Source: Agarophyton chilense (lineage: Eukaryota; Rhodophyta; Florideophyceae; Gracilariales; Gracilariaceae). From it: a DNA stretch of 64,000 nucleotides. The DNA lies in NCBI GenBank assembly GCA_030374765.1, contig JARGXX010000111.1:1178001-1242000 (forward strand), in the 5' to 3' direction. Below the pieces are notes generated by a model. It was not told the DNA's origin. It searched no databases and saw only the letters and a program-made list of their open reading frames with translations. Both the position numbers and the translations under genes were made by a program. How positions within the stretch are numbered: position 1 is the stretch's first letter; every line of letters starts with the position of its first letter. Below are positions 3,641-59,640 of the stretch, piece by piece.

Positions 3641-5365
3641 TCAGGTTAAACCTGCGTAGCCTGTTCGGACAGCCGAGGGCTTTTTTGTGCCACTGTAGCG
3701 CCGTTCTCGGCTTGTGATTGCATAGTCGTCGGGTCTACGGTTACCCGTTTTTTCACGTTGCGTGTTCTTTCTGTACTTATTAGGGGCCTGAGCCAAACTG
3801 GGCTTCTTCACCGAAGGTTCGGCCGGAGGTGCATCCACCACTAATGGAGGTTTAGCCTCATCTCCTCTTTCTTCTCTTTGGTCGGCTGCCAAGGGCGATC
3901 TCTCAACGAGTGGCGTTCCACTTGACGGTTCAACTTGAACGGATAACGGCGTGTGTGCAGCGGCTTCTGGACCGGATCTAGCTAGGCCAAATTTGAAAAT
4001 ATCTTTCCTGTCTTCAGGTCCTGTGGTCGTACCAGAGTGCTGGCTCTTACCAGGGGGCTTATTCAGATTTTTCAGAGAATTGCCGTGGAATGCCACTGTA
4101 CTGCCGCGCAGCGGGAGATCACGAGCCGTGTCAGGGTCGTGTGCCACGGAAGGCGGGTCGTCTGATTCGACGGGTAGCTCCCGTTCCTGCCGATAAACAG
4201 CGCTTCATTTCCCAGTTTCCTGGGGTTCAGAGTTGTCTGGTGCGGTTTCAACACGATCGCTCGAAAACCGTTCAACGTCCTCTCCTGTCTTCAGGACTAC
4301 TGTGTCACCGGTAAGCTCCATTACCTTGAAAGGTCCGGATGCTACCGGTAGCAATTTGTGATGTGGTCCATCCTGCTTTTCTAGTCTTTCCACGCGAACA
4401 AACACGTATCCTCCTATCCGGAGATCTGACAACTGTCTTCGCCGTCGGGCGTCCGAATTACGTTTGTAATGCGTTTGCGTTTTTGCCAATTCTCGAGCTG
4501 CTTGCTCTGTCCTTAACCTAAGGTCGTTACTCCACTTCAGATGGTTCTTCGCCGGTGTCGGCTTGTCTTCCTCGACTTCGTCCAACCTAATAGGTAGTGA
4601 CGGTGGGCTACGTGATATCACGAGATCAAAAGGAGCCGCCTTGGTAGACGTATGCACTTGCGTGTTGTACGCATAACAGAGTATTTCTGTGTACATGTCC
4701 CACTTCTTCGGGTGATCCGCTATGTAATGCCGAAGAGCGGCTAATAATGTACGGTTGTAGCGTTCCACATGACCATTACACTGTGGGTGGCAGGTCGTGG
4801 TAAACACGTTCTTGATTCCCATTATTCGGCTTACATTCTGAAAGAACTTAGCAACAAACTGCTTTCCCTTATCTGATTGCAGAACTTCCGGCGGTCCGTA
4901 CACATAAACCCAGTGTTTGATGAAAGCCTGAGCTACTACCGAAGCGGTTATCCTCTTCAACGGTATAGTCCGTTCAAGTTTTGATAATCGAACTGTAATT
5001 ACCAGTAGGTCGCGATATCCTTGATTGGAACGAATTAGCTCTCCAATTATGTCGATGCTTACGAATTGTAGAGGCGCCTTCGCCGGGACTGCTGCCATCT
5101 TTTTCCTCTTCTTATATAGTTTCACGCGATTCATCGCACAAATTCGGAATAGCTTCACCGTAGCATGGCAGTCCATTGCCAACGTTGGCCAATAGAAGTC
5201 CCTTCTTAGGGCCATTAACAATCTTGTTCCTCCTGGGTGTCCAGATAGCTTCGCATAATAGGCCAAGTAGAGTACATGACTCTTCCAAGCGTACGGAACT
5301 ACGATCTGATCATGCATCTCGACATGTCTGAGAAATATACCTTGTGAATCGAGCGAAAAGGGCAA
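3641..5365 (-). pseudogene. Integrase region of element A
   Basis: The frame opens with the zinc-binding part (Y-x-L-S-G-H-P-G-G, then the cysteine pair ending RICAMNR) and continues into the catalytic core. The DDE residues are visible: D in VSIDIIGEL, D in LQSDKGKQF, and E in GHVERYNRT. A C-terminal segment with DLRIGGYVFVRVERL resembles the GPY/F-type tail. A stop at 4205 is followed in the same frame by a proline/serine/lysine-rich tail ending at 3641. The 386-residue block 4205-5365 is the best preserved part of the element. Confidence 0.88.
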
Positions 5366-5443
5366 ATCCTCCCCCCCATTAAAACGAGAGCGTATCTCTG
5401 TGCAGAATTCATCTGTGAGTTGCTCATGGAGGAGCTCAGTGAT

Positions 5444-6009
5444 CTAGATACGCTCGAGTTGATCAGGAGGTTCAGTGCCATGTGTTACCATGAGAGGGTC
5501 CAATTGGGAGTAATCCCTTTCATCTTCTTGACCTTCAAGTTGCCTTTCATCTTTGTTCGTCTCCATTGAGAATGACGGTATATCGTCATCGATTTCTCCT
5601 TGGGTTTCCCCTGATGTTTCCAATCGCGATAAAGCGTTGGCTTGTATGTTTGCCAGTCCGTTTTTATGTTTTACTTCGAAATCGAACTCAGATAGTCGTA
5701 AGCGCCAACGTGTCAATCTTCCGGAGGGGTCTGTTATTGATTATAACCATCGTAGGGATGAATGATCCGTATGGATGGTAAAGGTTTCTCACTGGAGATA
5801 GGGTCGTAAAGTAGTCAGCGTCCTCACAACCGCAAGGAATTTTTTTCTGATACGGAGTAATTCTTCTCTGCAGCGTTCAGCGTTCGTGACCAGTAACCGA
5901 TTGGTTTCCTCTGACCATCCGGTTCGGTCTGAAAAAGGGCGCACACTACCTGATACTCACTGGAGTCGGTATCCAAAGAATAGGGTAGCTTGGGTTTGGG
6001 CAAGGCCAA
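5444..6009 (-). pseudogene. RNase H region of element A
   Basis: Two blocks are recognisable: SLDTDSSEYQVVCALFQ plus GYWSRTLNAAEKNYS at 5824-6009, and WRLRLSEFDFEVKHKNGLAN followed by NALSRL at 5444-5716. These are the start and end of the RNase H domain typical for Ty3 elements. The middle is frame-shifted. Confidence 0.8.
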
Positions 6010-6969
6010 GATTGGTGCTGTGACGAGTTTGTCTTTAAAGTCTTGAATGATTCGTATTCGGCGGGTCCGAACTCCTCGAGCTTAATCGGTTGTATTTTAC
6101 GCAACGATGCATTCAATGGAGCTGCAATGTGCGAGGAGCGCGGTATGAATTGTCTGTAGACGTTACATGATCCAAGGAAGAATCGCAATTGAGTCTGTGT
6201 CGAAGGTGGTTGTGACTCATGGACTGCCGCTGTCTGCGATTCATGAATTCCAAGCTGACCGGGTCTAATTATGTGGCACAAGTTCTTCACAGTATTAGCG
6301 AACCACTCGCATTTTTTGAACTGCGAGGTTATACTTGCTGTCTGCAACGCTTTGAGGCTCTCATCTACATGTCGCATATGACTTTCCATATCGTGAGAGA
6401 AGATAATGACATCTTCCAAATATACTAAACCTTTTTTACCATTTATACTTCGAGATTAATATGTCCAGGGTGCACTGGAACCTTGCTGGATCATTGCTAT
6501 GTCCAAATGGCATCCGCTTAAAACAGTGTAGTCCAGCATGTGACACAAATACATTCTTATCCTGATCTTCTCCGCCTACCCGAACCAGCCAGTAGCCCGT
6601 GTTGGCGTCAAGCGTGTTGAACATGTTCGCATCGCCTAAGCTGTCTATACACTCGTCCATGCGAGGCAGTAGATATGTATCTCGCATCGTAACTGCGTTG
6701 AGTTTCCGATAGTAGACACAGAATCGTAAAAGACCATCAGGTTTTGGGACTAGCACCACAGGGGAAGCCCAAGTAGATAATGCTGCTTCTATTACTCCCG
6801 CTTCGAGCATCTTGGCAACATTGTTCTCCTCGATCTGACGAGTTCGCGGTCCTGCTCTGTAAGGTGGCTGAGAAATGGGGTGAGATCCCGGAATAACATC
6901 AATATGATGTCCTGTGGCGGAGATCTCTCCTAGTTTTCCACTCCACATAGAGGCATACTTTTTCAACAT
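5946..6969 (-). pseudogene. Reverse transcriptase of element A
   Basis: Palm and finger motifs are present in order: SPVVLVPKPDG, LNAVTMRDTYLLPRMD, FNTLDANTGYW (first catalytic Asp), MPFGHSNDPARFQ. The YxDD box reads YLED at 6411-6422, so one catalytic aspartate is changed to glutamate. A stop lies just before it (about 6425-6436). The enzyme would be inactive. Confidence 0.88.
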
Positions 6970-17795: not shown

Positions 17796-20700
17796 TTATT
17801 CCTCTCTTTTTGGCTAACCGAGATGCTTCTGTAAGCTTCGCCTCAGATACATCGCTACAACCGATGTTCAATCTTCCAGTACACAATGTTAGTTGTAGTG
17901 CATCAGTTATACAGCTCTCGTTCTCCGACAGGGGATCAGCTATAATTACCGAGCCCGGAATCCATGAGATCAAATCTACAGTTCTGGTTTCAAACTAAAA
18001 TCAAAAGCTGCTGACATCACCTCTGATTTACTTGTAGATAGATTTTTCTGCGTAGACATTGACGTTAACAGTTCTTTGGAGTAGACTATAATTTTCAGCC
18101 TAACTTTCAGGTTCAGTAGTTTTCGGTAGGCGTTCCTGATATTCTTCCCTTCATCTATTCCTTCTTCTGCTGCAAAAATATCTGCAGATGGCACATTTCT
18201 CACTGGACACATTGCCTTGTGAGACATCCAGGAGACAACATGGTAGATTGCATTCTTATGCATGTTTTCTAAAAATAGGCCAGTTATAATTCCCAGGTGT
18301 CTGATATCATCGATACGAGATACATCAGAGAATACGACATTACTGAGCTCGTAGTCAGTTTTGTCAATTGGGCTTAGATAGGCGATAAAGGTGCCTAGCT
18401 TCTTAAGCTTTCTGATCGTGTTGGTTTGCTCAAGCAGGTAACTCAATCAGATGTCAGGTGCTTTCTGTTGAAGGTAGCTGCTAAAGAATGAACACGGCGG
18501 TGAAGCGGCAGTCCCTATCCAGCTTAATGAGCTGTGTATTGATGCATATATGGACCTCTCAATTTTGGTGAGGCTCGCTGCAGACTCTTTTCGTCGCGGA
18601 CGCGAAATTGGATATTCCATGACACCTTCCAGCTTGTCTTGGGCGTTTGTCTCGATGGTCACGTCACTGTTTTGGATGGTGTTAATTCTGAAGATTTGTA
18701 GTGTCCCTGGGCCATTGTTGATGACGCCAAAATTAAACTTATCATTAAGGGCTCCTAGAAACCTTTTTGCACGGTCTCCTTTACCAGCCACCTTGAAAGT
18801 ATTTAATATCTTAGCTACTATCAGATACAGTCTTCCATTCTGTTTCTTTTAGAAGAGCTGCGGTATGTATGCAAACCGTGAGAGGCCAATTTGTGGCATC
18901 ATGGTGTCAGATGCATTCTGCCACTTTGCGATGGCAGTCACTAATCTATAGGCAGCAGCCAAGAGTAGCCAGACAAGAGTACACTTCATTCTTATTTCTT
19001 TTGGTGGCCTTACGGATACATCCCTCTGTGCATCTCCCGTTCGTAGAAAAGCAGTTGTTACATCGGCTTTATGTAGCCTCCAGCCATGAAATGACGCTAT
19101 CGATTCTAAGATACACACAAGGGTAGGAGTACAAGTTGCACAGTCTTTGCTAAGCTCATCTTTCATGTCATCCTAATTGCCATGCAAGGCGATACAGGCT
19201 TTGATTTTCAGGGACCCGTCATCATTACGGTTGATTTTATATAGGGTATCGCTACTTACTATGTTGGAGCAGGGCGGAACGACCCGGCGAAACACTGGCT
19301 TAGCAGTTTTGAGAAAGCTGTCTTCTTTCTTAGTACACGCATTGTGCATTGGATACTGATCAAACCCTCGCGCCTAATGCTGAAGGAAAGGCTTATTTTT
19401 AAAGTGATCAAGAATAGACTTTTAGAACTGTGTCTTCTTTTCCAACCACTTCCAGTGGTACAGGCACTTGGCCTGAGTCGGCAGGCAAGCTATCAGTGCA
19501 GTTCCAAACTTCCTGTGTCAAATCCAGCACTATAGATCCACCATCGTCGTTGTATAGATTGACATGTATGTCTTTGCTTCAGAGTGTACAGTCCCCGGGT
19601 AATAGGTGTCGTCAAGAGGCCAGAATAACACGACCCTATCTCTAACGTTGGCATTGTTTCCACAGTCATCACCATCAAAGATGGCATCGAAGCCATGAGA
19701 GTCAGCATCATCCCAGCTGTACTCAGTCTCATTGATGATTGGTAGCACTAGATCAATGTCATTATCCTTTCTGATGGCATCCAGGCCATCTTGTTCGAGC
19801 TTTGAGAGGCCAGTATCTGGAAGTGAAAACCGATTGTTTTCCAAGGCAGCTGTCATCTCTCTGCCAGTATCACCTGGCACCTTGACGGATCGTGCCAGTG
19901 TGTCGACAGATGTCACTGTCTTTGGAATGAACCAATGACCTCGTTTCTCTTTGTCCTTCTTGATGAAAGCCTTTTGAGTATCTCCAGTCAATATAGGTAC
20001 TTCGGAGATCGATTTTGAACCAAGAATCCGTGCTAAATTTCTTTGAGCACTGAACTGGTCTCTCTCTTCAACTACTTCAGCAGGAATGGAGGTGTCAATT
20101 GGCTTCCTTCCCGCAGGTTTCGTGAGCCCTTTTGCCAATTCGTATGCCGAGAGTTGGTCGTTACCGTAGAGATCGTTTGAGATGGTCACAGATTGGTAGG
20201 ACGATAGAATAGGACTAAAATTGTTGTCACCCGCTGCCTTGAGGCAAAGAAATACGCTCCTCTTGATCATATGAGCCAATTCTAATGGGTCACGGGATGC
20301 AACGGGTGGCAGGGGTATTTCGAGCGAGTCACAATAATCTCCAAATGCGCCGACCATGAAGGCTTTGTCGCCACGTATGGTATCGAGTTACCAGAAGGCC
20401 GACACCCAAGATGCTTCAAATCCTATGATCGCTTCTTGAAGAGCAGTTGTTGACACATCGTGGGCTGCGGAGTATCTCGACACCAGGTCCATAATCTGCA
20501 TATCACACAGTTGATCTAAGAACAATTGATCGCAGAATACGTCATTGATAACTTCGAGAGAGTGCTTATCGATATTTTCCGAGTTGAAGGGAGAGCTTCT
20601 GTTGATCGACATGCTGTGTAGCTAGCAACGATGTCAGCAACATAGCTTGCAACTTTATGGTTCCATAGACCAATGCGTTGCAACAGCAGTTTTAAAGTTA

Positions 20701-24803: not shown

Positions 24804-27800
24804 TTGAAGCGCAACTGTTGGTTCAATCCAGAGAGTAAGAACTACAAAGGGTCCAATGAATACGACAAGACTCAGAAGAGCACACGTGAGAATGGTGAAG
24901 AGGACCATGGAAGTGCACCTTTCACTTTCATTGCAAGCACTACCGCATTCAAAGAAGACCTGGAGACACCAGTAGATGTCAAGGACGATGATGAGCTTGG
25001 CGCTGATCATGGATTGGTTGCAGGACAGAAGACGTTGAGGAATCGGCAGAGCAAGTGGTACCTGGACTCCGGCGCATCTGTCTACACGACGAATGACCTC
25101 GAGAACTTCTGTGGTCCCGTGAAGAGGTCTGAAAAGAAGTTCATCTCGGTTGGTATCGGAGCGAAATTGTCGGTTGAAGGCAGAGAAGACGTGCGATGTA
25201 GCGTGAGGGTGCGAGCAAATGATGAGACTCTTCATCTTGAGAACGTCCAATTTATTCCAAAGCTCATGTGTAACCTTCTCTCAGTAAGCGCCATCAGACG
25301 AAAAGGGTTCTCTATTCTGTTTACTACGGATGAGTTTGACAACGGCTTTGCGTTGATAGGAGGACATGGCAGTAACAAACAATTGGCTATTGCTGTAGAG
25401 CACGACGAAGGGCTCTATGAACTACTCCTAACACATCGATCAGAGGATGAGGATTCTGCATTGATTGCCAATGATGATCAGAGTTTTAAGAAGGTTTGGC
25501 ACAACAGATTGGGCCATCCCAGCCACCAGTATCTACGAAAAACGCTCATGATTGTGAAGGGCGTATCGTTGGAAGGAGTCAAGAAGATGGTTCACTGTGA
25601 GCCATATGCGTTAGGCAAAGCAGTCAGAGCACCCCGACTCCCAATAACTGAGAAGGAACGAATGACAAAGAGCATTCTATAACTCGTTCATACCGATGGA
25701 ATGGGTCCAATCAAGGTACAGTCTCTCTCTGGAGCAAGGTATATTGTGACGGCATATGAAGACAAGAGCTGCTTGTCCTCCGTGAGGTTCTTGAGGAAGA
25801 GGTCGTCCTGTGAGGATGCGTTGAAGCAGATGATATATGAGTTTGAAACTCAGTCGGGACTGAAGCTTAAGAGATACCGGTTCGATAATGCAGGCGAGTA
25901 TGAGAGCAATTCATTCACGAAGTGGTTACAGAACAAAGGGGGTGTCCTTGAGCCTTCACCAGCATATAGTCCAGAGTCTAACGGCAAAGCCGAACGTTTG
26001 AATCGTACACTCAATGACAAAGCGCGGACAATGCTGCTAACATTGGCTGGAACTCCTCGCTACACTCAGTTATGGGATGAAGCTGTACGTACTTCAAACT
26101 ACCTGCGCAACTGCATGTACACGAAGCGAAGCGATCAGCGCGAGGTGACTCCCCTCGAAGCGTTCACGGGCAAAAGGCCGAACATATCCCATCTTCGGAC
26201 ATTTGGAACAGAATGTTTTGTTCATATACCCAAGGAGAGAAGAACAAAAAGTGACAAGTACAGTGCTCGTTCCATGAGAGGAGTGCTGGTGGGATACGAC
26301 AAGGGAACCTGTTACAGAGTGTATCTACCAGAAGCATCGAAGATCATTGTCTTAAAGGATGTATCGTTCAATGAAACTGTCGTAGGTTGGAACAAGAAGG
26401 TGATGAACTGTCAAGAGCTTGATTTGTCTACAGTCGGCTCTATCATTGAAGAATTGATTCCACTGGAGGAGAACATCACAGGTTCTGAGGTAGAAGTGTC
26501 CCACGCTGATGAAATGATAATTGCGGAAGACAGAAGAGGCACTGAATATAAGGATGGGAAACAAGAGGCCAAAGAAGAGGATGTTTTCGTTGATGCTGAA
26601 CAAGATTTTACTTACGACCCGGAGGACGTCACTCACTATCCTGCGGAGCTACGACGATCTACTAGAACTCGTGAACGGACGTCGCGCTACACGCCGGACA
26701 CTGCGCTTGCATTGATTGCACAGAGCGTGCTGAGTGATTTGACGGCTTATGACCCCAGCACTCATGAAGAGGCTATGCGTGCTCCGAATGCAAAGAACTG
26801 GGTTCAATCAATGGAAAAAGAGATGGGCAACATGAAGCAACGGGAAGTATGGAAATTTGTCCCGCGCCCGGCAAACTGCACACCGATTGACAACCGATGG
26901 ATATTCTTCAAGAAGCGTGATGAAAACGGTCAAGTGACCCGGCACAGGGCTCGTTTGGTCGCGCGCGGTTTCTCTCAGCGAAGGGGAATTGACTACGGTG
27001 AGTTGTTTGCGCCAGTAGCCAAGTATGATACCATCCGCACACTAAAATACATGGCAGTAGAACAAGATCTTCTCATGACACAGTTTGACGTCCAAACTGC
27101 TTTTATCTACGGCGGTCTAGAAGAGGAGTTGTACATGATGCAGCCCAAGGGGTTTGTCATCCAAGGAAAGAAAAGTCATGTGCTACGCTTGCTGAAGGCA
27201 ATCTACGGCACAAAACAAGCTTCACGTGCCTGGAGGATGAAGTTTGTTTCTGTGATGGACCAAATCGGATGTACTCAATCACAAAACGATCCGAGTTTGT
27301 TCTTCTATGGCAAGGGATCGAGAAGTGTTTGTATTGTTATGTATGCAGATGATGGTTTGGTTACCGTGAAAGAAAGAAGTGACATCCAGCAGTTCATGAA
27401 GAAGTTGCAAACTTTCGTGAAAATAAGAATCACTGAGAACCCCAAGAAGTTTCTTGGGGTGATTATCGAACGCAAGGCTACGAAGAACCAGATTTGAATT
27501 CATAACAAGCCCATGATTTTGGAGCTCTTGAAGCGCTTCAGAATGTCTCATGCGGCCGATGCGTACGTTCCTTTGCAACAATCGAACTTGCCGGCGACGA
27601 AAACAGAAGGGGGAGAACGTCTACCCTACAAGGAACGATTTGGATCACTGATGCACTTGTCAAACACAGTTCGACCTGACATTGCACTTTCTGTTTCCTG
27701 CTTGGCCGGTTTTATGCAGACCTACAATAGGGAGCATTGGAATGCCGCAAAAACATCTTGAACTACTTGAAGACTGCAGTTGACGCTGAGATTGTCTACA

Positions 27801-38636: not shown

Positions 38637-41600
38637 TTAGTGCTCAGTTTTCTGAAGAGTCTTAGTAAAAAAATCGGCTATCATGTTATCTGAAGGACAG
38701 CAATTGATTTCAATAAATTGTTGTTGCACACATTTTTGAACATGAAAGTGCTTAATAGTAATGTGTTTCGATTTTCCATAACTTCCTTCATTTTTAGAAG
38801 TAAATATTGCTGACTGGTTGCTCACACAAATAGTAACTGGTGATGATGTGACATTTTTCATTTCATACATTAGTTGCAAGAGAAATAATGTTTCTTTAAC
38901 TGCTTTACATAATGCAATTAATTCTGTTTCTGTACTTGATAAAGAAACACAGTTTTGATTACGGCTGCTCCACGATATTAAATAATTTTCATAGTAGCTG
39001 GCATATCCTGAAATTGATTTTTGCTCTTTTGTATTTCCCCAATTTGCACAACTGAATATTTCTACAGTGTTGCTTTCTTTCCACGAAAAAAAGGTACAGA
39101 TCTTTTGTTTTCGGCATAAAGCGTAATACTCTTTTGCAAGGAGACCAATGTTCATTAAAAACACTATCAGAATATTGGCTTAGAGTAGTACTGGCATAAG
39201 ACAGGTCTGGTCTCGTTCCAAGCATCATATAAATGATGGATCCAATTGCTTTTCAATACGGAACTGATTCTGTTCCGATTCCGATTTCTTTCGGTTTCAA
39301 AAATGCTTTGTTAGGTTCTAGAGGGGTTTGAATGGGTTTGTTGTTTTCAATACCAAATATTTTCAACACTGTTTCCGAATACTGTTTCATTATTTTTCTC
39401 TATTTTATGTTGTACTTTACTTTGATTCTAACAACATGGCATATTTCCCTCAGATCTTTCATACAAAAAAATGTAAGCTCAATTTCGATTTGACGAACTT
39501 CATCGTTTCAATGTCTTCAGCAGAGATGATGAAGTAATCTGAATACAAAAATAAAAATACTGGATGTCCATTTATATTTCAAACAAATATACCATTATCT
39601 GGGTTGCATTTTGCGATTTCTATCTCTCCATGTACCGAGAAAGTTACTTTATATCAATCTCTCGGTGCTTCTTTAAACCATAAATACATTTCTGCAATTT
39701 ACAAACATGCGTAGGATATTTTGTGCTTTTAAATCTTTCTGGTTGCTCCATGCATATTGTTTTCTAGAATACCATTCGAAAATGCGGTTGTGACACCCAT
39801 TTATAAAATATGCATTTTAAGCTGCATAGAAAGTGCAAGAATCATTCAGAAAGAGGCTATTATTACAACTGATGCATATGTTTTAAAATAATCCATTCCA
39901 TATTTTTTTTGAACTCCTCTGCACACGAGGCGCTATAAATTTTTTTGGTTTCCTGTTTCAGGTTTAATTTATAAATGTATTTAGGAGTAAGAATTCGCAT
40001 TCTAGCTTTTTTAGGTAACAGGGTCTATGTATTGTTTTTCATGAAAACATTTATTTCTTTTTCCATTGCAGTGGTCCAATACTTTTTATCAGATACTGTG
40101 AGTTCTTCTTCAATAAGATTAGGTCTCCATTCATTTGCGAACATAATAACTGCTCCTGTAGTAGTATTTTCATTTTCTTTAGTATGCTCGTACGTCAGAA
40201 ATGCTGGAGTCTTTACGACTCTTGTGGATCTTCTAGGAACGATTTGATGAGTTTCTAAATTTTTGTCGTCCCGATTTCCTGGTTCCTGAATATGTTCTGT
40301 GTTTGAACAATTTTCTTCAAGTTATTTGTCATTGCTGTTTTTTTCTGCGTACACTCCAAGACCATTGTCTTTTGGGGGCTCACAAACCTGTGCATTTGCA
40401 CTTACTATAACTCTTCTCGTACTTTTGTCGATGAATATGTAGTTTTTTTCCTTCATATCCAATAAAAGTGCACAGTCTTCATTTAGCATCCCATTTTATT
40501 CGTTTTCCTTTTGAAACAATAACCTAGGCCAAACATCGAAAACCTCTAAGATTGGAAAGGTTCAGCTTCCTTTCAGCCCTTTTTCTTAAAGGACTCATGT
40601 CTTTTATATTTTTGTTGGAAAAAAATTTCTGTTTTTGTTTGCCGTCTGTACTGCCTCGGCCCAAAAACTTTAAGAAACTTTGTAGTAATAAATCATACAA
40701 CGAGCTTTTTCACATAGTGTTCTATTCAGTCTTTTTGCAATTCCATTTTGTTGCGGTTGGTGAGCAACTGTATGCTAAAAAACAATTCTTTTTGATTTAA
40801 AAAATTAGTATAGTTTTGTAGATGAATATGATCTTCTTCTCTGTCACTGCGAATTCTTTTGACAGAAAGTCTAGTCTGATTCTCAGCCAATTCAATAACT
40901 TTCTTCGTTTCTTTGAACCGATTCGTTTTTTGTTTTCAGGAAATAAACATAAGATTTTCTAGTGTAACCATCTGTAAACGTGATAAATAAAATCTTCCTC
41001 CATTTAAAAGAGTTTTGAAAGGAGTACAAAGGTATATGTGAATTAATTCCAGTTTTGGTTTTGCTTGAAAGTCGTTAATAGGTTTAAGTGACTTTGAATC
41101 CATTTTTCCTTGAACGCACCCCTCGCAGTATTTTTCCATTTTTGGTTTTAGTAGCGTTGGTATTCCAGCAGCAGTTTGTTTTGAATATAATTGATTTAAA
41201 ACTGATTTTCTAGTGTGTCCATGTCTGGAATGCTATAATTCAATATATTTCAAAGTTTTGCTGTGCGGCAGAATATGAGAAATCATTATTATCCTTAGTT
41301 TTGTAAGCTTTGAAACAGCACATTGATGAGTCTGTCTGAACATTTAAGATTGTTTCCTTGTTATGGTTTGTAATTATTTTGCATGACTCTTTCTGAAAGT
41401 GAACAGTATTACTACGTTCATCCATTTTTCCAAAAGATAAAACATTAGTAGCAATTACGGTTACATGCAGTACTTCCAAGGTTATTAGAACTTCACTTTT
41501 TCAGTTTCTAGTTTTGTGTATTGCAATATTTCCTTTTATGTTTAAAGTGGCTTTGGTTCCATCCCCAAATCTAATCGTAACGGGGTCAAATTTGCGTACA

Positions 41601-45177: not shown

Positions 45178-46100
45178 TGTGTTTCCGTATGCACCTTTGT
45201 AAATATTCTAAACATCAACCACGCAAATTGCAATCGAATAAGTATTAACTCTGTTTGGGTTCTTCCGACACGCCACTACGACTTCAACGGCGTTTAAAAT
45301 GGAGTCGAAACCAGAATCCGTAAGATTGGACATCATAACCAAACGTGCGAAAGAGTTGCAAAGGCTTCTGATTCATTGAAAACTTTCTCTTTGTCAAAAA
45401 GTTTTCCGCCGAAAGTGCCAAGTTCCCCGGCAATTTCTAGGGACCTAGTGTAGAGCAACGCGTGCGCGTATATCCGATCGGGGCACCATTCATAAGGGAT
45501 TCGATATATCGAGGACCACGTCACCGATATCATGAGTAATACTAGTTTTTAGTATTTTAGTCACCTTAGAAGGTATGTTATTTAAGTCTCTATAGTAGAA
45601 TCGTTGTGGACGGATGGACGTGAAAGGCTGGGGTTACACAAATGATACGTGTATGGACCAGGGTTGGTTTGCACTACTATAGTCTACACCTGTTGTTCAC
45701 TGTCTAAACTAGACTTTAACAATGGCTTCACCGTCATCGCTACCACCAAGTAAATGGTAATCGAGTGCTTGGTTCTAGATTATGTCGCCTACGCGAATCT
45801 CCGTCTCTTAACGGGAAAAACCGCGACGAAGTTGTTTAATTTAGCCCCTCAGGAAGCTCAGGAGTACTTGTACCATTGTTATTGGTTTTCTTGTGTTCAG
45901 GACAGTACATTGCTTCTGTATAGGGTTGCTTTTACCCGTCATTATTTCGCTTATCTAGTTTGGATACCTTTTTATAGGTCTGTACGCTTGGTCGTGTGTC
46001 CTATTTTGCTCTACATTTTCGCCCCACATTTTTGTTTTGTCCATAAAAAATCCTTTTCCTTGGATCCCCTTTTGATTGTTTCTCTTTTCCGGGGTTCATC

Positions 46101-46368
46101 TGAAAGAGTTATGGACACTCTACTGTTCAGTGTCGACCTTGTCGAAGAGGTAGAGCGTGCAAATTGCTAGAGTGTAGTCGTTGTACACTATCGGTGTGAG
46201 TACCGTGGTTTACAATTCATAATCATGAAGGTCTAAATACACAAAGTCATAACATATAAACGGCCGTAATTAACAACGAACATATTCATCAAACTGAATC
46301 AAAGATACAAATTCAAATACCAAGCGGGCGCATCCAAAAGCAACCAACCAGAACCGAATAGTTCTATA
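46101..46368 (-). repeat. 3' LTR of copia C
   Basis: 268 bp. On the minus strand it starts TATAGAAC and ends CTCTTTCA; the TA start instead of TG is fixed by the target duplication and by the other LTR. Confidence 0.95.
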
Positions 46369-46382
46369 CTCCTCCCTTTTCA
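46369..46382 (-). other. Polypurine tract of copia C
   Basis: Minus strand TGAAAAGGGAGGAG directly before the LTR; its first three bases are the stop codon of the polyprotein. Confidence 0.8.
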
Positions 46383-49300
46383 CCCAAAGTTTTTCTCAGA
46401 GTGTTTTGTCTCCGAGATCTTGTCAAAGTCGAAACAAAGTTTTCCAGTAAACAAAGTTAACTGAAGTGCATCAGTCAGCGCGCTGTCCTTCTTCGTCAGA
46501 GGATCAGCCAGATTAGAATGTCCAGGAACCCAAGAGATCTTATCCACAGCACCAGTCTGAAATTCGTAGCGAACACATGCAACATCACCGCGGATAGACT
46601 TGTCGATGGAATTCTTTTGTGTGGATAGTGAAGTAAAGAGATCTTTGGAGTCAACAGCCAAACGCAACTTGATTTCCTTCCCAAGTAGCTCGGTGTAGGC
46701 GTTAGAAATAGTCTTACCTTCATCAATGCCCTCAGAAGCGGCGAGGATTTCCGCAGCTGGAACACTCTTAACAGGACGCTTCGATTTGTGGGACATCCAC
46801 GAGATGGCATGGTAGATGGACTGATTCTTCATTTCACCAACCAACAAACCAGTGAGCACACCAAGTTGTCCGCATTCGTCCGTCCTGGAAGCATCAGAAA
46901 AAACCAACACGCTCAGTTCGTGCTGTCTATTATCCGTCGGTATCGGATAAGCAATGGTTGTCCCAAGCTTCTTAAGCTTACGAACAATATTTATCTGTTC
47001 AACCAAATGACAAACCTTAAGTTCCGGTGCTTTCTGCTGCAAGTAGCTTGCATAGAATGAGCAGAATGGTGAAGCTGCAGTCCCAATCCAACCAAGCGAG
47101 CTGTTGGTTGAGGCAAACACGGATTTCTCGATCTTGTTCAGAGATTGATCGAACTGCTTGCGACGTTGCCTAGTGAATGGATATTCTACGACTGCATCCA
47201 ACTTGTCATCTGCATCCGTCTCAATTGTCATGTCACCATTTTGCACCGTGTTGATACCAAAGAACCGAAGCTTTCCTGGACCCTTCATGACATCGCCAAA
47301 CTTGAAACGCTTGTCGAACTCTTTCATGAAATGATTCACCCGATCTCCTTTTCCGGCAGCTTTCAGGTCATCAACAATTTTTGCCACAATTAACACCAAT
47401 TTTCCGTTTTCTTTCTGAAAGAACAGCTGTGGCACATGCACTGATTGCGTGAGTCCAATGTCAAACATAACTTGATCAGACTGACTCTGCCATTTGGCAT
47501 TTGCATTGACGAGGCCATACGCAGCTGTGAGTAGTAACCAAAGATGAGTAGCCTTCATGTGACTTTCCTTCGGAGGGCGAACATATACATCCCTCTGAGC
47601 CTCCCCGGTCTGCAGGAATGCCGCTTTTAAGTCAGCTCTATAGATGTTCCATTCGTATAGAGACGCAATTGACTCAAGGATACGTAGTCCTGTGGGCGGG
47701 CACGTTGTGCAATCTTTGCTCAAGGCATTCTTCAAGTCATCTTCATTACCATGTGGTGCTATGCGAGCTTTCAGCTTAAGCGAGCCATCATCATTGGTCT
47801 TAACCTTGTACAATGTGTGGCTGTTAATGATGTTGGCGTTAGGCGGGACTTGATTATGCGAAACAGGGCGCACAGTCTTGAGAAAAGTCTCCTCCTCCTT
47901 CTTGTAGGCGTTCACCAAGGGAAATTGGTCAAAACCCTGGGCATGATGTCTAAGGAACGGCTTGTTCCCAAAGTGATCAAGCATCGATGAGAGAACAGAA
48001 GTCTCAGTGCTTGTTACCTGTAGCTCAGGTTGCGTAGAACTAGAACTGGCCGCGAATGTCTCATTGTTGAACTTCCATACTTCGTTCGAAATATCCAAAG
48101 TTTCAGTGTCTCCGTCATCATAGTGAATGTTCAAACGTCCATCTTCCTCCTCAGAGTGAACAGTACCCGGATAGAACTGATCTTCGAGAGGCCAGAACAC
48201 TGAGATGTTGTCACCGACAGATGGTTCAACGTTTGCAGACTCAGTGGAAAAATCATCATCAACAGGTTTGATGTCTTCAGACGACGACACTGGAGTATCA
48301 GAGCCAGTTGCAGCATGTCCGGTGAGGTCAAATGAACTCTCCTCATTCGACTCATCAATAGAGTCGATACCTTCTTGCACTAGTTGTGCAAAGCTCTCTT
48401 GAGGTAGGGCTTTACGGGTGTCCTCGAAAGCAACTGTAACTTGTTTGCCTTTGCGTCCAGGTACAGTCACTGAGCGAGCACTGCGGTCAACGGAGAGAAT
48501 TGGCTTGGCAATAGACCATTTTCCTCTCTTCTCGTGGTCTTTCTTATGATATACTTCGACCATGTCGCTGACAGCGATAGGTGGTTCAGAGACCGCCTTC
48601 GAGCGCAAGATGAGCGCTAGCTTCCTGCGAGCGTGAAGTTGATCGCGAGCAGTGCGAACATCATCGGGTACAGTCGTATCAGTGGGCTTTGCCACAACGG
48701 GACATGTAAACCCTTTGGCCAGTTCGAATGCAGACATTGTGTCATTCCCGTACAAGTCATTCGAAATGGAGACAGACTTGTATGCTCCAAGCATAGGATC
48801 AAAGTCCTGTCCAGCAGCTTCTTTCAAGCGGAGAAAGACACTGCGTATGATATTGTGCTTAGACTCGATGGCATTCTTAGAGTGCCTGCCAGGAGGCACT
48901 GGCTGAACTGGAATCCCAAGGTTGTCGATGTAGTCTTTAAACACACCGACTTGAAAGGCTTTGTCTGCCCGAATAGACTCAGGATACCAGAACTGGGAAA
49001 CCCAAGCTGCTTCGAATCCAACAATAGCTTCTTTGAGGTTTGTCGATGACACCGCATGAACACATGAGTACCTCGTGATTAGATCCATTAGATGCATAAG
49101 CAATATTTCATCCAAGTGCAAGTGGTCAACGCACAGAACCTCGTTGAAATTCTTGGATAGTGAGCTGATAGATACCTTGCGGCTCGGTTGCGGAACTGCT
49201 GTTGAACGACAAGCAGAACAACGATTGACCATTTGTGTATCATAAGATGCAACCGTGTCATTCCAAAATCCGTTTCTTTCTAGAAGAAGCTTGTAGTCGG

Positions 49301-50909
49301 TAAGGCTAGCATGTCCGCATACATGCTTGTGTACCTTGTCAATGATTCTCTTTACCTCAGGCCATGGTTTCGAATTGACAGTTACAGCTGAAAGGCATGA
49401 AAGCACAGAGCTCTTACTGCAGTTACCAGTAAAGCGATTGAGCTCGACGTAGCTCAAAAAATCACGGTTGACGAGAGAAATAGATTCCCTTGTACCATTT
49501 GCAAGAAAGACCAGAGCATTTATTCCAATGTGCTCAATGTTGGCCTTGCTGGTCACATTCCTTCCTATGACCCACTGAGATGAACCGTCTAATACCAAAT
49601 GCTTGATTTCGATCAGAGACCCTTGGTCTGATCTGGCTGTCAAAACAATGGAGCCTAAAATGCGGCGTGCTGGACTAGCATGATCTCCTGTCCCATACTG
49701 CCAATGGGTGTGTCCATTGAGCGTGTCGGGAATGGGCCCTAAGGTGGGGTTTGTGGGCATTCCAAGATGTTCACCCAACAGGCCAAGTTCAACTGAGCCA
49801 ATTCCAGCATATGGCGCTCCATCATCAAGAAGAGGTCCTAGTTCAACAGTTGGCATATTTGTAGTAGCAGAGGAACTGCAGAGACGGTTTGTGGTCACAC
49901 TATAATGTGGAGCGGCTGGAGATGTTGCCGTGCTAGACGTAACAGGCTTTAGAGTCGTTGCCATATTGAATCGAACCGTCTTTGTATGCGATTTGTCATC
50001 TGTGTCACGTCTTGAGCTTTCGTGATACCTAGATCGCGAGGAACTCAAGCCATTGGCTCCTGATCTTTGGGGTCTGTCAAAAGACTTGCAATGTGAGGGA
50101 AGTGATCCATCAGCATTGTGGTTGCGTTTCCAATGTCCGTACTTACCGCACAGATCACATGGATACTTCATTGTAGGAGATTGTCCCTTTTGATTGAACC
50201 GGTGTCGCTCATGACGAGTTGTACCACCAGAGCTGGCCGATAAGGTTCCATACTCTTGCGCTGGATGCGAAGTCTTGTCGCATTGCTTGAGTACAGAGGC
50301 TACAGACTGATACGTGATGGCACTTAAAAACTGTTCGTTAGAAGACTGTGAATTTAGGTTTTCGTCCGACGGTGCAGCAGCAGCCATGACAGACACACGC
50401 TGAGAGTCATCAATTGCAGAATTAGACAGTAGCATCAAAGCTGTAATACATTCCGGTAGTTTAGTTGTCGTGGAAATAGAGTTGAATCTTGCAACCTGTG
50501 CAGAAAAACGAGACTCAAAATTCTTCATGGTCTCGGTATTACCACGTCTTGTATTCCAGAGTTGGTTAAAGTCACGATAGGCCTCACTCACCACAGAAAG
50601 AGCGTCTTTCTGATAAATTTTGCCAACTATAACATTGACGGCACCTTCAGTAACCAACTCAGCCTCTGAAATTCCGGAGCAGAGGTCTTTAGCACGCCCG
50701 TACAGCTGGGACTTAAGACAAATTGCTTGCAGAGTAGCTGGGATCTTGTGACTGTTTGAGGCGGGCAGTGCGTTGTGAAATGTCTGCCAAAGATTGACAG
50801 CATCACGATATTCTTCTTGATCACCTTTGCCATCTGTCCATGGCGGGGACTTGGCATCCCAGGAGAACTTAGGCCTGGAAGGCAAATTGGAATTGGGCGC
50901 TGGGCCCAT
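46380..50909 (-). CDS. Gag-pol polyprotein of copia C
   Basis: An open frame of 1,516 residues counted from an ATG at 50930 inside the LTR; the likely start is the eighth residue, ATG at 50909 (MGPAPNSN), shared with element B. Numbering here is from 50930. Gag about 8-300, with a CX2CX4HX4H knuckle at 258-271. Protease active site LLDDGAPYAGIG near 368-379 and IGRNVT near 455-460. Integrase: H534/H540, C571/C574, D602, D656, E689. Tudor-like segment 903-955 (FWPLEDQFYPGTV, YDDGDTETLDI, EVWKF). RT about 1000-1260: D1100 in YRADLKAAFLQTG, and IVDD at 1185-1188 in place of YVDD. RNase H: D1346, E1394, D1427, D1476. No stop or shift. Domain order IN before RT is the copia order. Confidence 0.95.
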   Translation of the reverse strand: MGPAPNSNLPSRPKFSWDAKSPPWTDGKGDQEEYRDAVNLWQTFHNALPASNSHKIPATLQAICLKSQLYGRAKDLCSGISEAELVTEGAVNVIVGKIYQKDALSVVSEAYRDFNQLWNTRRGNTETMKNFESRFSAQVARFNSISTTTKLPECITALMLLSNSAIDDSQRVSVMAAAAPSDENLNSQSSNEQFLSAITYQSVASVLKQCDKTSHPAQEYGTLSASSGGTTRHERHRFNQKGQSPTMKYPCDLCGKYGHWKRNHNADGSLPSHCKSFDRPQRSGANGLSSSRSRYHESSRRDTDDKSHTKTVRFNMATTLKPVTSSTATSPAAPHYSVTTNRLCSSSATTNMPTVELGPLLDDGAPYAGIGSVELGLLGEHLGMPTNPTLGPIPDTLNGHTHWQYGTGDHASPARRILGSIVLTARSDQGSLIEIKHLVLDGSSQWVIGRNVTSKANIEHIGINALVFLANGTRESISLVNRDFLSYVELNRFTGNCSKSSVLSCLSAVTVNSKPWPEVKRIIDKVHKHVCGHASLTDYKLLLERNGFWNDTVASYDTQMVNRCSACRSTAVPQPSRKVSISSLSKNFNEVLCVDHLHLDEILLMHLMDLITRYSCVHAVSSTNLKEAIVGFEAAWVSQFWYPESIRADKAFQVGVFKDYIDNLGIPVQPVPPGRHSKNAIESKHNIIRSVFLRLKEAAGQDFDPMLGAYKSVSISNDLYGNDTMSAFELAKGFTCPVVAKPTDTTVPDDVRTARDQLHARRKLALILRSKAVSEPPIAVSDMVEVYHKKDHEKRGKWSIAKPILSVDRSARSVTVPGRKGKQVTVAFEDTRKALPQESFAQLVQEGIDSIDESNEESSFDLTGHAATGSDTPVSSSEDIKPVDDDFSTESANVEPSVGDNISVFWPLEDQFYPGTVHSEEEDGRLNIHYDDGDTETLDISNEVWKFNNETFAASSSSTQPELQVTSTETSVLSSMLDHFGNKPFLRHHAQGFDQFPLVNAYKKEEETFLKTVRPVSHNQVPPNANIINSHTLYKVKTNDDGSLKLKARIAPHGNEDDLKNALSKDCTTCPPTGLRILESIASLYEWNIYRADLKAAFLQTGEAQRDVYVRPPKESHMKATHLWLLLTAAYGLVNANAKWQSQSDQVMFDIGLTQSVHVPQLFFQKENGKLVLIVAKIVDDLKAAGKGDRVNHFMKEFDKRFKFGDVMKGPGKLRFFGINTVQNGDMTIETDADDKLDAVVEYPFTRQRRKQFDQSLNKIEKSVFASTNSSLGWIGTAASPFCSFYASYLQQKAPELKVCHLVEQINIVRKLKKLGTTIAYPIPTDNRQHELSVLVFSDASRTDECGQLGVLTGLLVGEMKNQSIYHAISWMSHKSKRPVKSVPAAEILAASEGIDEGKTISNAYTELLGKEIKLRLAVDSKDLFTSLSTQKNSIDKSIRGDVACVRYEFQTGAVDKISWVPGHSNLADPLTKKDSALTDALQLTLFTGKLCFDFDKISETKHSEKNFG

Positions 50910-50912
50910 AAC
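50900..50912 (-). other. Primer-binding site of copia C, overlapping the gag start
   Basis: Minus strand GTTATGGGCCCAG directly after the 5' LTR, a perfect complement to CTGGGCCCATAAC of the eukaryotic initiator tRNA-Met anticodon arm. Its ATG (50907-50909) is the gag start codon. Confidence 0.85.
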
Positions 50913-51180
50913 TGAAAGAGTTATGGACACTCTACTGTTCAGTGTCGACCTTGTCGAAGAAGTAGAGCGTGCAAATTGCTAGAGTGTAGTCGTTGTACAC
51001 TATCGGTGTGAGTACCGTGGTTTACAATTCATAATCATGAAGGTCTAAATACACAAAGTCATAACATATAAACGGCCGTAATTAACAACGAACATATTCA
51101 TCAAACTGAATCAAAGATACAAATTCAAATACCAAGCGGGCGCATCCAAAAGCAACCAACCAGAACCGAATAGTTCTATA
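50913..51180 (-). repeat. 5' LTR of copia C
   Basis: 268 bp, one difference from the left LTR (AAGAAG here against AAGAGG). Followed by TCATC. Confidence 0.95.
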
Positions 51181-51339
51181 TCATCACCTTCGTAGGTATT
51201 TCCTGAACCAATTTAGTTCTACACCCACACATCAGTGGCACGAAGGCTCGTTCGCTGAGTTACCCCTCTTCACGAGAGCGGGACTCGAACACCCGAGAGT
51301 TATTTCTTCATTTGGGATTGCTCTATATTTAGACACGTG

Positions 51340-57619: not shown

Positions 57620-57735
57620 CTTCAAATGCCTGTCATGGTGCTGTGAACATTGAAAGTTAACGTAGCTCTGGTGCTAACGACCTCCCTCCTTTTCTTTCTT
57701 GTTTATCATCCTTACAATTCTTGGCAGAAGCTCAC

Positions 57736-59640
57736 ATGGAAGTGGCTGGTATCATAGACGTTGTCGGATTCCTCGCAGAATTCATCTCGGTTGTCCAGTT
57801 CTTTGAGGGTCCGGAAGAGACAATAAATGCTGCTTATGGCCTTCTACAGGACACCCATGAAGACATTGAGTCCTTGAAGGAAAGAATAAATCGTCAGAGC
57901 GATACCATAAAGAGCATGATAACCACAGGCGTGATAATCGAGGTTCGTTCGCGCCTGAAAGCAACCCATATTCCGTCAGCAAATCTAGAACTTCTTATTA
58001 AGCTTTTATTGGCTATCAAGGACTTCGCATCGAATGTCGTCTTCGCATTGGTGGTCAAATATCCAGGTTTCAGGGTCAACGCTACCCTTGGAGTGGCGGG
58101 AATGTCATCAGATCGTATTGAAGACCTTGTGGAGAACTTTGATGGAATGTACGTAAGTCTTCAAGAAGTCCGAGAAGTCAAAACGTGTTTCGTGAATGTA
58201 AGGATTCGTGGAAAGTACGAACGCAGAGTTGAAAACTTTTGCTCCGCCGCTCTTTCAGCCATTGCCACTGAAGTCTTCGGTTTTCCCGCGCAAGTTTCTC
58301 CCCAAAATGAGATGGAATTTCCAATTGCACCAGCAGGAAATCAAACGTTTGTTCTCCTTCGCCCCGAAGTAAGTGATGACAGTGTGGAGGTCGAATTTGA
58401 CCAGAATCGACGAAAATTTATTGTGGGAAATACCAGGTCTGGAAAGTCAACAGTTGGGAATGCTCTTCTGGAAAAGGGGTTGTTTGAAGTCTTGAAGGGA
58501 ATGACGGGCACCATGCAATTGAAAGCGGGACATAGAACTGATGTGGTGAATCATGAAAGCTGGCGCACGGATTTATACGACATACCTGGTTTGAATGACA
58601 AGGATGGACTAGATGTATGGTACGAAGCGGCAATAGAGGACCACATCAAGATTCTACAACAAATAAGCTCATTGGTAATGACTGTGAACGTAGATGGAGG
58701 CATTTCAAGAGCCACTTTCGTGTCACTAGACATGTACAAGAAGCTGTTTGGGGAGGACATGGCTTCTATGCTTATTCTCGTTCTAACCGTGAATGAGCCT
58801 GCTAGTGAGTATGAGCTCGAAGCGACGAAGAACAACAACTGGCCAACTATCCGTAGGCTCGATCATCGCATAAGAAAGGAGCATGTGTTTTGCGTAAGCC
58901 TTCACGATTTAAGGCAGCAACATGACTGCCCTTCTCGTACAATTGTGGAACTAATTAGAACTATGTGTAGGGCGATGCCGATGAGCCTCATCACATCTCT
59001 TGCAACAAGATACAAGGAGATAAGGGACGCATTGAAACAGAGAGAGGGCAATGTAGAAGCTGAGGTGCAGACGCTTGTGGATGACGGCTGGCAAGCATAT
59101 GACAATCTTACAGAAAGCTTCGAGAGACAGGAATACGTCAAACTCACGGATGACGAAAGTGGACTGTTCGACGGTTTTGTGATGAAGTGTACCAGTGAGG
59201 ATGATCAGCTGCTTGCTTTCATTACACTTGGATTGGTGAACAATATACGCAAAACTGCGATTCATGTACAGCATGAGGGAATTATGGCTGATACGATTTG
59301 GAGTGATTTTCTCTCGGAGAATCGGTGGAATAGGAAGAACTGTACATTGATGCGTAGGTTTGGAGATCATGTTTCTGCGAACGGAATGGCGGTGCTTGTT
59401 AGAGATGCTGGGGTATCATACAAGGGAACACTCCATGTGCAGAGTTACTTCGTTAGCATGTTCAACCCAGTCAGCTATTCTCATGAACAACTAGCCTCGT
59501 ACCTCACTGAAATATTGAAAGGAAATGAAGATGAAATGGCACCAGAAGTTGTGGACAGTTTGAGGAAAATGGCTATTCCGAGGCGCATTGTTGCCAAACT
59601 GCGCGGCAGGCGGGAGGCAACAAAGAAAAGCAAGAAATGA
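57736..59640 (+). CDS. AIG1/GIMAP-like GTPase with N-terminal helical domain
   Basis: The first ATG of the frame is at 57736, giving 634 residues (the frame itself is open from 57721; numbering here is from 57721). Residues 1-225 are helical, with LKERI-type heptads near 50-65 and an apolar stretch at 90-112, and match no family I know. The GTPase part starts with P-loop VGNTRSGKST (236-244), then GMTGTMQ (switch I Thr), and DIPGLND (287-293) as G3. The order GNxxSGKSxxGNALL...T...DxPGL.D is that of AIG1/GIMAP and Toc34-type septin-like GTPases. The G4 box is atypical: LTVNEP at 355-360 without NKxD. A helical tail ends in basic RRKK-type sequence (KLRGRREATKKSKK). No transmembrane anchor is obvious. 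GIMAP/AIG1 proteins act in immune and membrane-associated processes; a role in defence is inference only. Confidence 0.82.
   Translation: MEVAGIIDVVGFLAEFISVVQFFEGPEETINAAYGLLQDTHEDIESLKERINRQSDTIKSMITTGVIIEVRSRLKATHIPSANLELLIKLLLAIKDFASNVVFALVVKYPGFRVNATLGVAGMSSDRIEDLVENFDGMYVSLQEVREVKTCFVNVRIRGKYERRVENFCSAALSAIATEVFGFPAQVSPQNEMEFPIAPAGNQTFVLLRPEVSDDSVEVEFDQNRRKFIVGNTRSGKSTVGNALLEKGLFEVLKGMTGTMQLKAGHRTDVVNHESWRTDLYDIPGLNDKDGLDVWYEAAIEDHIKILQQISSLVMTVNVDGGISRATFVSLDMYKKLFGEDMASMLILVLTVNEPASEYELEATKNNNWPTIRRLDHRIRKEHVFCVSLHDLRQQHDCPSRTIVELIRTMCRAMPMSLITSLATRYKEIRDALKQREGNVEAEVQTLVDDGWQAYDNLTESFERQEYVKLTDDESGLFDGFVMKCTSEDDQLLAFITLGLVNNIRKTAIHVQHEGIMADTIWSDFLSENRWNRKNCTLMRRFGDHVSANGMAVLVRDAGVSYKGTLHVQSYFVSMFNPVSYSHEQLASYLTEILKGNEDEMAPEVVDSLRKMAIPRRIVAKLRGRREATKKSKK

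Follow-up and report, generated by a model that had tools for sequence, protein, structure and literature searches.

A predicted RDM15-type Tudor domain behind the integrase of a Ty1/copia clade in the red alga Agarophyton chilense

Introduction

Site choice by chromatin reading in LTR retrotransposons rests mainly on chromodomains and on short motifs of yeast elements. Like that of Ty1, the targeting domain of Ty5 is located at the integrase C-terminus, and to our knowledge neither of the two targeting determinants is a folded histone reader. The Ty1 determinant is described as a C-terminal residue stretch that binds Pol III AC40, and the Ty5 determinant as a sequence that binds Sir4, both within a copia-type integrase (PMC9673352). 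Chromoviruses, in which an integrase-linked chromatin reader is presumed to be the targeting module (PMC2774666), differ from the element described here by their gypsy gene order, their chromodomain, and a separate capture.

Two algal systems come closer. CoDi-A copia elements of diatoms have a putative chromodomain at the C-terminal end of their integrase (PMC2774666) and thus resemble the present element, which is also of the copia type and has its putative chromatin reader in that place. They differ from it in that the module is described as a chromodomain and the host is a diatom, whereas here a Tudor domain in a red alga, with no match to a Pfam Chromo family, is concerned. The second system is Gypsy-10_Ec32 from Ectocarpus, an LTR retrotransposon with a Tudor domain in its polyprotein that is presumed to be a chromatin reader and that its authors call to their knowledge the first reported transposable element with a Tudor (PMC12477816). 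Gypsy-10_Ec32 is a Ty3/gypsy element with a C-terminal Tudor, whereas the element presented below is a Ty1/copia element with its Tudor between integrase and reverse transcriptase (RT). The original prediction for this locus had proposed a parallel to the chromodomains of chromoviruses; that idea has published precedents in CoDi-A (PMC2774666) and in the Ectocarpus gypsy element (PMC12477816). In the retrievable portion of the open-licence PMC literature, a Tudor domain in copia elements was not found reported, including from the angles of red algal copia, chromodomain, and agenet.

The reference protein for the comparison is Arabidopsis RDM15, which acts in RNA-directed DNA methylation (PMC8184781). 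The window analyzed here is a stretch of 64,000 nucleotides of A. chilense contig JARGXX010000111.1 (positions 1,178,001 to 1,242,000, assembly GCA_030374765.1).

Results

Architecture of element A

Element A is encoded on the minus strand of the window by one uninterrupted open reading frame (ORF) for a copia-type polyprotein (Table 1). Its Ty1/copia traits are an integrase ahead of the RT, an RVT_2-type RT, LTRs, and a 5-bp duplication; chromovirus traits are absent, as the integrase precedes the RT and no Chromo family was matched. The LTRs (268 nt each) differ by one mismatch, and perfect 5-bp duplications were observed in all three family-A copies with flanks read (TCATC in element A, AGGGA, and CGTAC).

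The integrase sequence is too divergent for Pfam, where rve gave no match, and its catalytic core was recognized by predicted structure. The D..D..E residues occupy positions 2, 56, and 89 of the modelled piece, and the best 50 of 124 Foldseek matches (E≤0.001) of this piece are retroviral integrases. The core is followed by a predicted barrel, the integrase C-terminal domain (CTD), whose Foldseek matches include integrase chains holding CCD and CTD. In the structure model of positions 48045-49130, which is of modest quality (mean pLDDT 61, pTM 0.41), the Tudor forms a second barrel that is separate from the CTD and located behind a predicted disordered linker of 64 residues.

The canonical aspartic protease motif is D[ST]G. 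Pfam found no protease match among the N-terminal pieces of the polyprotein; a protease-like motif, LDGSSQWVIG, is present at window positions 49560-49601 (LDGSSQWVIGRNV), and kin of element A (loci L048, L049, and L055) contain EGSSQWVVGRNV and TGSSQWVVGTNV, likewise without canonical D[ST]G.

Elsewhere in the window, an ordinary copia element with Pol_BBD, gag_pre-integrs, SH3_retrovirus, and RVT_2 is found at 24804-27497 (plus strand), and gypsy-type integrase and RT pieces at 4205-6969 (minus strand), with rve and RVT_1 just under the cut-off. A 639-aa ORF at 57721-59640 (plus strand) has an AIG1-type GTPase domain above the cut-off and is perhaps a host gene.

Table 1. Features of elements A and B in the window (LTRs named in the coding sense)
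Feature	Position	Strand	Basis and remarks
Polyprotein ORF, element A	46380..50930	-	ORF list; 1516 aa
3' LTR, element A	46101..46368	-	Repeat comparison, boundaries read
5' LTR, element A	50913..51180	-	Repeat comparison, boundaries read
Target-site duplication TCATC, low-coordinate side of element A	46096..46100	.	Flank reading
Target-site duplication TCATC, high-coordinate side of element A	51181..51185	.	Flank reading
Integrase catalytic core, RNase H-like fold	48591..49130	-	Predicted structure, Foldseek
Integrase C-terminal five-strand barrel (CTD), distinct from Tudor	48423..48572	-	Model strands 194-234
Linker, disordered and fast-evolving	48231..48422	-	pLDDT <50 over model residues 237-300
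Tudor domain, RDM15-type	48066..48224	-	Pfam, PDB search, predicted structure
Reverse transcriptase (RVT_2)	47232..47687	-	Pfam profile, E 2.3e-16
Pocket residues of element A Tudor	W 48192-48194, Y 48171-48173, Y 48120-48122	-	Alignment to 7de9
Pocket acidic residues of element A Tudor	D 48114-48116, D 48108-48110, E 48102-48104	-	Alignment to 7de9
Tudor block, first half, decayed element B	19572..19658	-	Profile E 1e-8
Tudor block, second half, element B, another frame	19477..19566	-	Profile E 0.024; HVNLYNDDGGSIVLDLTQEVWN
RT of decayed element B	18534..19127	-	C111:1196534-1197127; 56% identity with element A; interrupted by one stop

Identity and predicted fold of the Tudor block

The block had been proposed to be a Tudor/agenet-type module between integrase and RT. 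It sits at exactly residues 903-955 of the polyprotein (the plus strand, read across the same interval in one frame, has a stop inside), and profile and structure evidence bears out both the predicted Tudor fold and its placement between the two enzymes. The five-stranded barrel that was to be looked for is present in the predicted structure. Of the proposed type, Tudor holds, and the nearest kin can be given more specifically as RDM15, a single-Tudor H3K4me1 reader.

Pfam Tudor_3 matches the block with an E-value of 5.8e-7 (29.7 bits, cut-off 25.8). When the block was compared with the PDB by phmmer, 7de9 was found at E 1.8e-7, and a profile of 40 Tudor sequences reached 7de9 at E 2.5e-14. 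The profile also found 34 further distinct PDB sequences (E≤0.1), which comprise KDM4A/B/C, PHF20 (one entry is listed as Medulloblastoma antigen and titled PHF20 Tudor), SMN, LBR, 53BP1, an SMN-related factor, and one "Uncharacterized protein". By these scores, the match of the block to Tudor is beyond chance. Among the 40 members, 30 are matched by Tudor_3 at E≤0.1, some of them below the curated cut-off, and neither PF25597 (SH3_retrovirus) nor any Chromo family is among the 21 Pfam families that the members match at this threshold.

PDB 7DE9 is the C-terminal Tudor of RDM15. The predicted element A Tudor shares its five-strand barrel (rmsd 0.7-1.2 Å) at about 35% sequence identity, and an RDM15-type H3K4me1 reader is probably its closest kin by sequence and predicted structure. 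The two differ in that RDM15 is a host chromatin protein, whereas the element A Tudor is a putative integrase appendage, and in having Q654 or E, respectively, at one contact site.

Conservation of the reader pocket

In RDM15, W616, Y623, and Y641 form the cage for the methyl group, the two protons of monomethyl-lysine (K4me1) are bonded by D643 and D645, and E647 and Q654 hold H3R2 (PMC8184781). Six of these seven contact residues (W, Y, Y, D, D, and E) are identical in element A, and Q654 is replaced by E. Over the 40 members, the cage consists of W (39), Y (29) or F (10), and Y (39), and the acidic sites are occupied by D (31) or N (9) at D643, D (24), E (15), or Y (1) at D645, and E (39) or K (1) at E647; the Q654 position holds E (31), V (8), or L (1).

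At 85% identity the members form eight sequence clusters, and the seven that do not contain element A are 30-72% identical to it. W, Y or F, Y, and E647 are found in 8/8 clusters; site 643 is D in six and N in two, and site 645 is D or E in all eight, of which E in four. Class conservation amounts to 0.96 for the first six pocket sites and to 0.93 for all seven, versus 0.63 for the whole domain (P 0.00045 and P 0.0007, respectively, from random sets over the eight clusters). Because of the N at 643 (2/8) and the E at 645 (4/8), one shared specificity is not to be assumed, and mark specificity may differ between the Tudor families.

Spread through the copia elements of the genome

Searches of the genome (79.8 Mb in 135 contigs) returned at least 150 matches each for Tudor and for RT. 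In each of 20 loci fetched from the RT matches listed, a Tudor lies some 0.4 kb upstream of where the RT query matched; 15 of these loci were not among the Tudor matches listed (L070, L071, L081, L083, and L084 were). Loci picked by Tudor_3 (6 kb each) carry it in 12/12 cases by tblastn, a result that is fixed by how they were chosen. They belong to a second deep lineage, with RTs 36-46% identical to that of element A (11/12 measured); the RT match covers more than 110 query residues in 11/12, L052 being the exception, and the ORFs of L048, L049, and L055 have the Tudor between integrase-like and RT-like sequence. For these loci, the reading of Tudor_3 matches outside the first list as host genes was rejected, as all 12 are copia elements or look so.

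In other copia lineages, a Tudor was found in none of the 11 loci with sequence upstream of the RT (best E 0.49), which do not represent 11 lineages, as most fall in two groups of the RT tree; 12 had been fetched, and L060, which is RT only, was left out. Loci L031 and L033-L040 come from places of the genome that L001-L012 also cover. The midpoint-rooted RT tree has 22 Tudor RTs and 11 non-Tudor RTs on its two sides (local support 1.0 and 0.852). The Tudor is present in every sampled member of its clade and absent from the other copia loci sampled. Given this sampling, in which lineages between may be missed, the pattern fits a Tudor gained once, at the root of its clade. Contig scans of the viral and non-eukaryote collections confirmed no relatives, which says nothing on other algae.

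The decayed element B in the same window had likewise been said to contain the block, and profile matches to both halves, in two frames, agree with this (Table 1). Its survival there had been taken as proof of selection; the presence of the block stands, and selection does not follow from one decayed copy but is shown by the comparison of lineages described below.

A host-like frame of 1730 aa with an N-terminal Tudor was identified at C68:4168450-4169250 (L091, C68:4168892; 801 bases read). Its Tudor lies about 20 residues after a Met and matches 7de9 at 2.7e-7, and this gene may be related to the source from which the copia elements took theirs. MSH6 was rejected as its identity, as there is no MutS_V match in that frame.

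Selection on the Tudor

From 72 loci with a Tudor match, 43 have the whole region stop-free, which yielded 32 distinct proteins for the dN/dS analysis. Over the piece compared, families A and B share 73% identity, and their synonymous sites are close to saturation (dS from above 1 to saturated); dN between them is 0.17 for the Tudor, 0.20 for the CTD, 0.13 for the catalytic core, 0.08 for the RT, and 0.44 and 0.42 for the linkers. In the more distant sets (A-others, C-others, and C-D, in this order), dN is 0.51, 0.52, and 0.29 for the Tudor; 0.38, 0.35, and 0.24 for the core; 0.41, 0.38, and 0.20 for the CTD; 0.80, 0.67, and 0.47 for the first linker; and 0.58, 0.55, and 0.23 for the second. 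Here the Tudor evolves faster than core and CTD, clearly slower than the first linker, and at about the pace of the second.

For the Tudor, dN/dS stays well below 1 in each of the four between-lineage sets (upper bootstrap bounds 0.14 to 0.40), values that are a rough bound only, since dS is saturated between lineages; point estimates for the linkers are also below 1 where calculable. Purifying selection on the block, which had been predicted, was thus found between lineages, with dN far below dS. Within families, dN/dS scatters around 1 and says little, as the Tudor point estimates above 1 in three of six families (C, D, and E) come from few changes and have wide intervals.

Genomic distribution

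At kilobase resolution, at least 201 merged Tudor positions were obtained among the matches listed. Three contigs (C100, C135, and C28; 5.8% of the genome), which were singled out after seeing the data, hold 50 of these 201, versus 8 of 150 rve positions (Fisher p 4e-7), which we infer to be mostly gypsy, and 9 of 129 other-copia positions (Fisher p 3e-5), again among the matches listed. Near-identical family-A copies are found there in 4/12 cases (P 0.004), and when family A is left out, the three contigs are still top among the seven densest contigs compared. Gene markers are few on them, with kinases at 2/117 positions (one array copy and one copy with a stop, on C100 and C28) and stronger helicase matches at 0/63, a count from which an end-of-contig family and weaker rows were left out. 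Contigs that are denser in kinases tend to be less dense in Tudor positions (rho -0.46, p 0.004, n=37), in a table that omits 73 of the 201 positions (contigs taken as <800 kb) and in which some lengths are lower bounds. Among the matches listed, 99/201 Tudor, 85/129 other-copia, and 22/150 rve positions are within 50 kb of their own kind.

One family-A copy (C135:375216, L089/L090, duplication CGTAC) sits inside an integrase gene of the Tudor clade's type. The left flank of this insertion matches L053 at E 3.6e-19; it is one of the three family-A sites read, and the integrase portion of the target was seen. The distribution as a whole, this insertion included, fits targeting and a shared refuge alike.

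Several other arrangements were observed along the contigs. At C100:1148484, 1153321, and 1158158, Tudor-copia blocks lie 4837 nt apart in the same orientation as a tandem array, likely LTR-sharing, and other copia elements occur at 4120-nt spacing on C91 and C92. On C56, C101, C102, and at the end of C100, a kinase gene repeatedly accompanies a Tudor-copia block in a tandem amplification, with a spacing of about 17.7 kb on the first three. Judged by eye and by the clustering counts, non-Tudor copia elements are concentrated in one or a few places per contig (C2:543-736, C6:17-78, C25:848-929, C68:598-812, and C105:957-1108 kb, with more than one cluster on C75), which are candidate centromeres. 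Helicase ORFs of roughly 1880 aa, all of one family, are located near the ends of many contigs (e.g., C10:8-30, C16:1794-1844, C88:3089-3108, C95:20 and 2978, C98:1450-1485, and C135:1679-1686 kb) and look like subtelomeric telomere-linked helicases.

Phycobilisome linker domains were found 13 times, and C39, apparently the plastid, holds seven of these. The same three-linker ORF (892 aa) is present there twice, at 39186-40895 and 224870-226579 and thus 185.7 kb apart, as if the assembly of a plastid genome had run on beyond a full circle. Two light-harvesting genes have chains of 7y5e, which is from the red alga Porphyridium, and 9kc5 as best matches. Taken together, the linker and light-harvesting genes indicate a red alga as host, and a diatom was rejected on their account.

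Discussion

The predicted fold, the position, the kept pocket, and the between-lineage purifying selection were obtained by computation. The reading that we favor, with modest confidence, is that in a Ty1/copia clade of a red alga an RDM15-type Tudor on a flexible linker behind the integrase barrel tethers the integrase to marked chromatin and biases insertion. After processing of the polyprotein, the Tudor would stay with the integrase and would there bind a methylated lysine on a histone tail, most likely H3K4me1 for element A. The pre-integration complex would thereby be tethered to chromatin with that mark, and insertion would be biased accordingly. The domain itself would have been acquired once, from a host Tudor gene. 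That the Tudor guides integration was part of the original prediction, and it is supported indirectly by the place at the integrase C-terminus, the kept pocket, and the skewed distribution. The Ty1 targeting domain (PMC9673352) and chromodomains are precedents for a module in or close to this place.

The nature of the mark matters for this reading. H3K4me1 is gene-body-like in land plants; if it were so here, a reader of it should favor genes, yet the Tudor elements concentrate where gene markers are few, a bias that fits an H3K4me1 reader only if the mark is silent-chromatin-like. In Chlamydomonas, H3K4me1 has a silencing role according to a review (PMC8566409), and with this the gene-poor bias neither contradicts nor supports an H3K4me1 reader.

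Two readings dispute the domain or its function. The block could have been mistaken for a Tudor and be the C-terminal barrel that copia integrases ordinarily have (PF25597), given that the two are both small SH3-like barrels and that the ordinary copia element of the window has PF25597 after its integrase (25701-27494). We consider this very improbable: a separate integrase barrel is predicted upstream, across the disordered linker, and PF25597 is missing from the families matched by the members, three quarters of which match Tudor_3. Just as improbable is that a true Tudor rides along as a passive host-derived insert without function. The host-like gene on C68, which has an N-terminal Tudor of the same type, makes a capture easy to imagine, but the pocket is kept in clusters that have diverged widely from element A, and the low dN relative to dS between lineages contradicts a lack of function.

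The remaining two dispute the steering. The contig skew may reflect survival instead of targeting, with Tudor elements landing widely and being purged from gene-rich contigs, as the scarcity of kinases and stronger helicases on the rich contigs and the inverse relation to kinase density would suggest; however, rve/gypsy and other copia positions, among the matches listed, are not enriched on those contigs, and near-identical family-A copies are already skewed, so that we regard survival as the explanation as rather doubtful. A selected Tudor could also act without steering: bound to methylated arginine or lysine of Gag or of host proteins, it would serve particle assembly, nuclear retention, or silencing escape. 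Tudor domains also bind dimethyl-arginine proteins, the SMN Tudor is among the profile matches (by its title, PDB 4a4e shows this domain bound to dimethylated arginine), a domain between integrase and RT could end on either product, and RDM15 itself works in RNA-directed DNA methylation. Set against this are the nearest relative by sequence and structure, a histone H3 reader, the acidic H3R2/K4me1-contact residues kept in element A, and the targeting domain in the integrase of Ty5 and at the integrase C-terminus of Ty1 (PMC9673352); a role other than steering is unlikely in our view.

Tethering of the integrase to marked chromatin can be extended to a fuller history, which we put forward tentatively: one host RDM15-like Tudor that reads H3K4me1 would have been captured and used on the integrase for homing to chromatin with a histone mark, the clade would have filled particular gene-poor chromosomes, including its own older copies, and the D/N and D/E changes of the pocket would tune the specificity of the families. 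If true, this would be a copia-based and Tudor-based counterpart of chromovirus targeting. The element is one more instance of reader-domain capture among algae, this time from Ty1/copia and from a red alga. Its Tudor has a recognizable pocket, is located at the C-terminus of a copia integrase, and is kept across deep lineages; it thus points to a specific histone mark that can be tested and offers natural variants of the pocket for comparison, and Tudor-copia elements may serve as a probe of the little-studied chromatin landscape of red algae.
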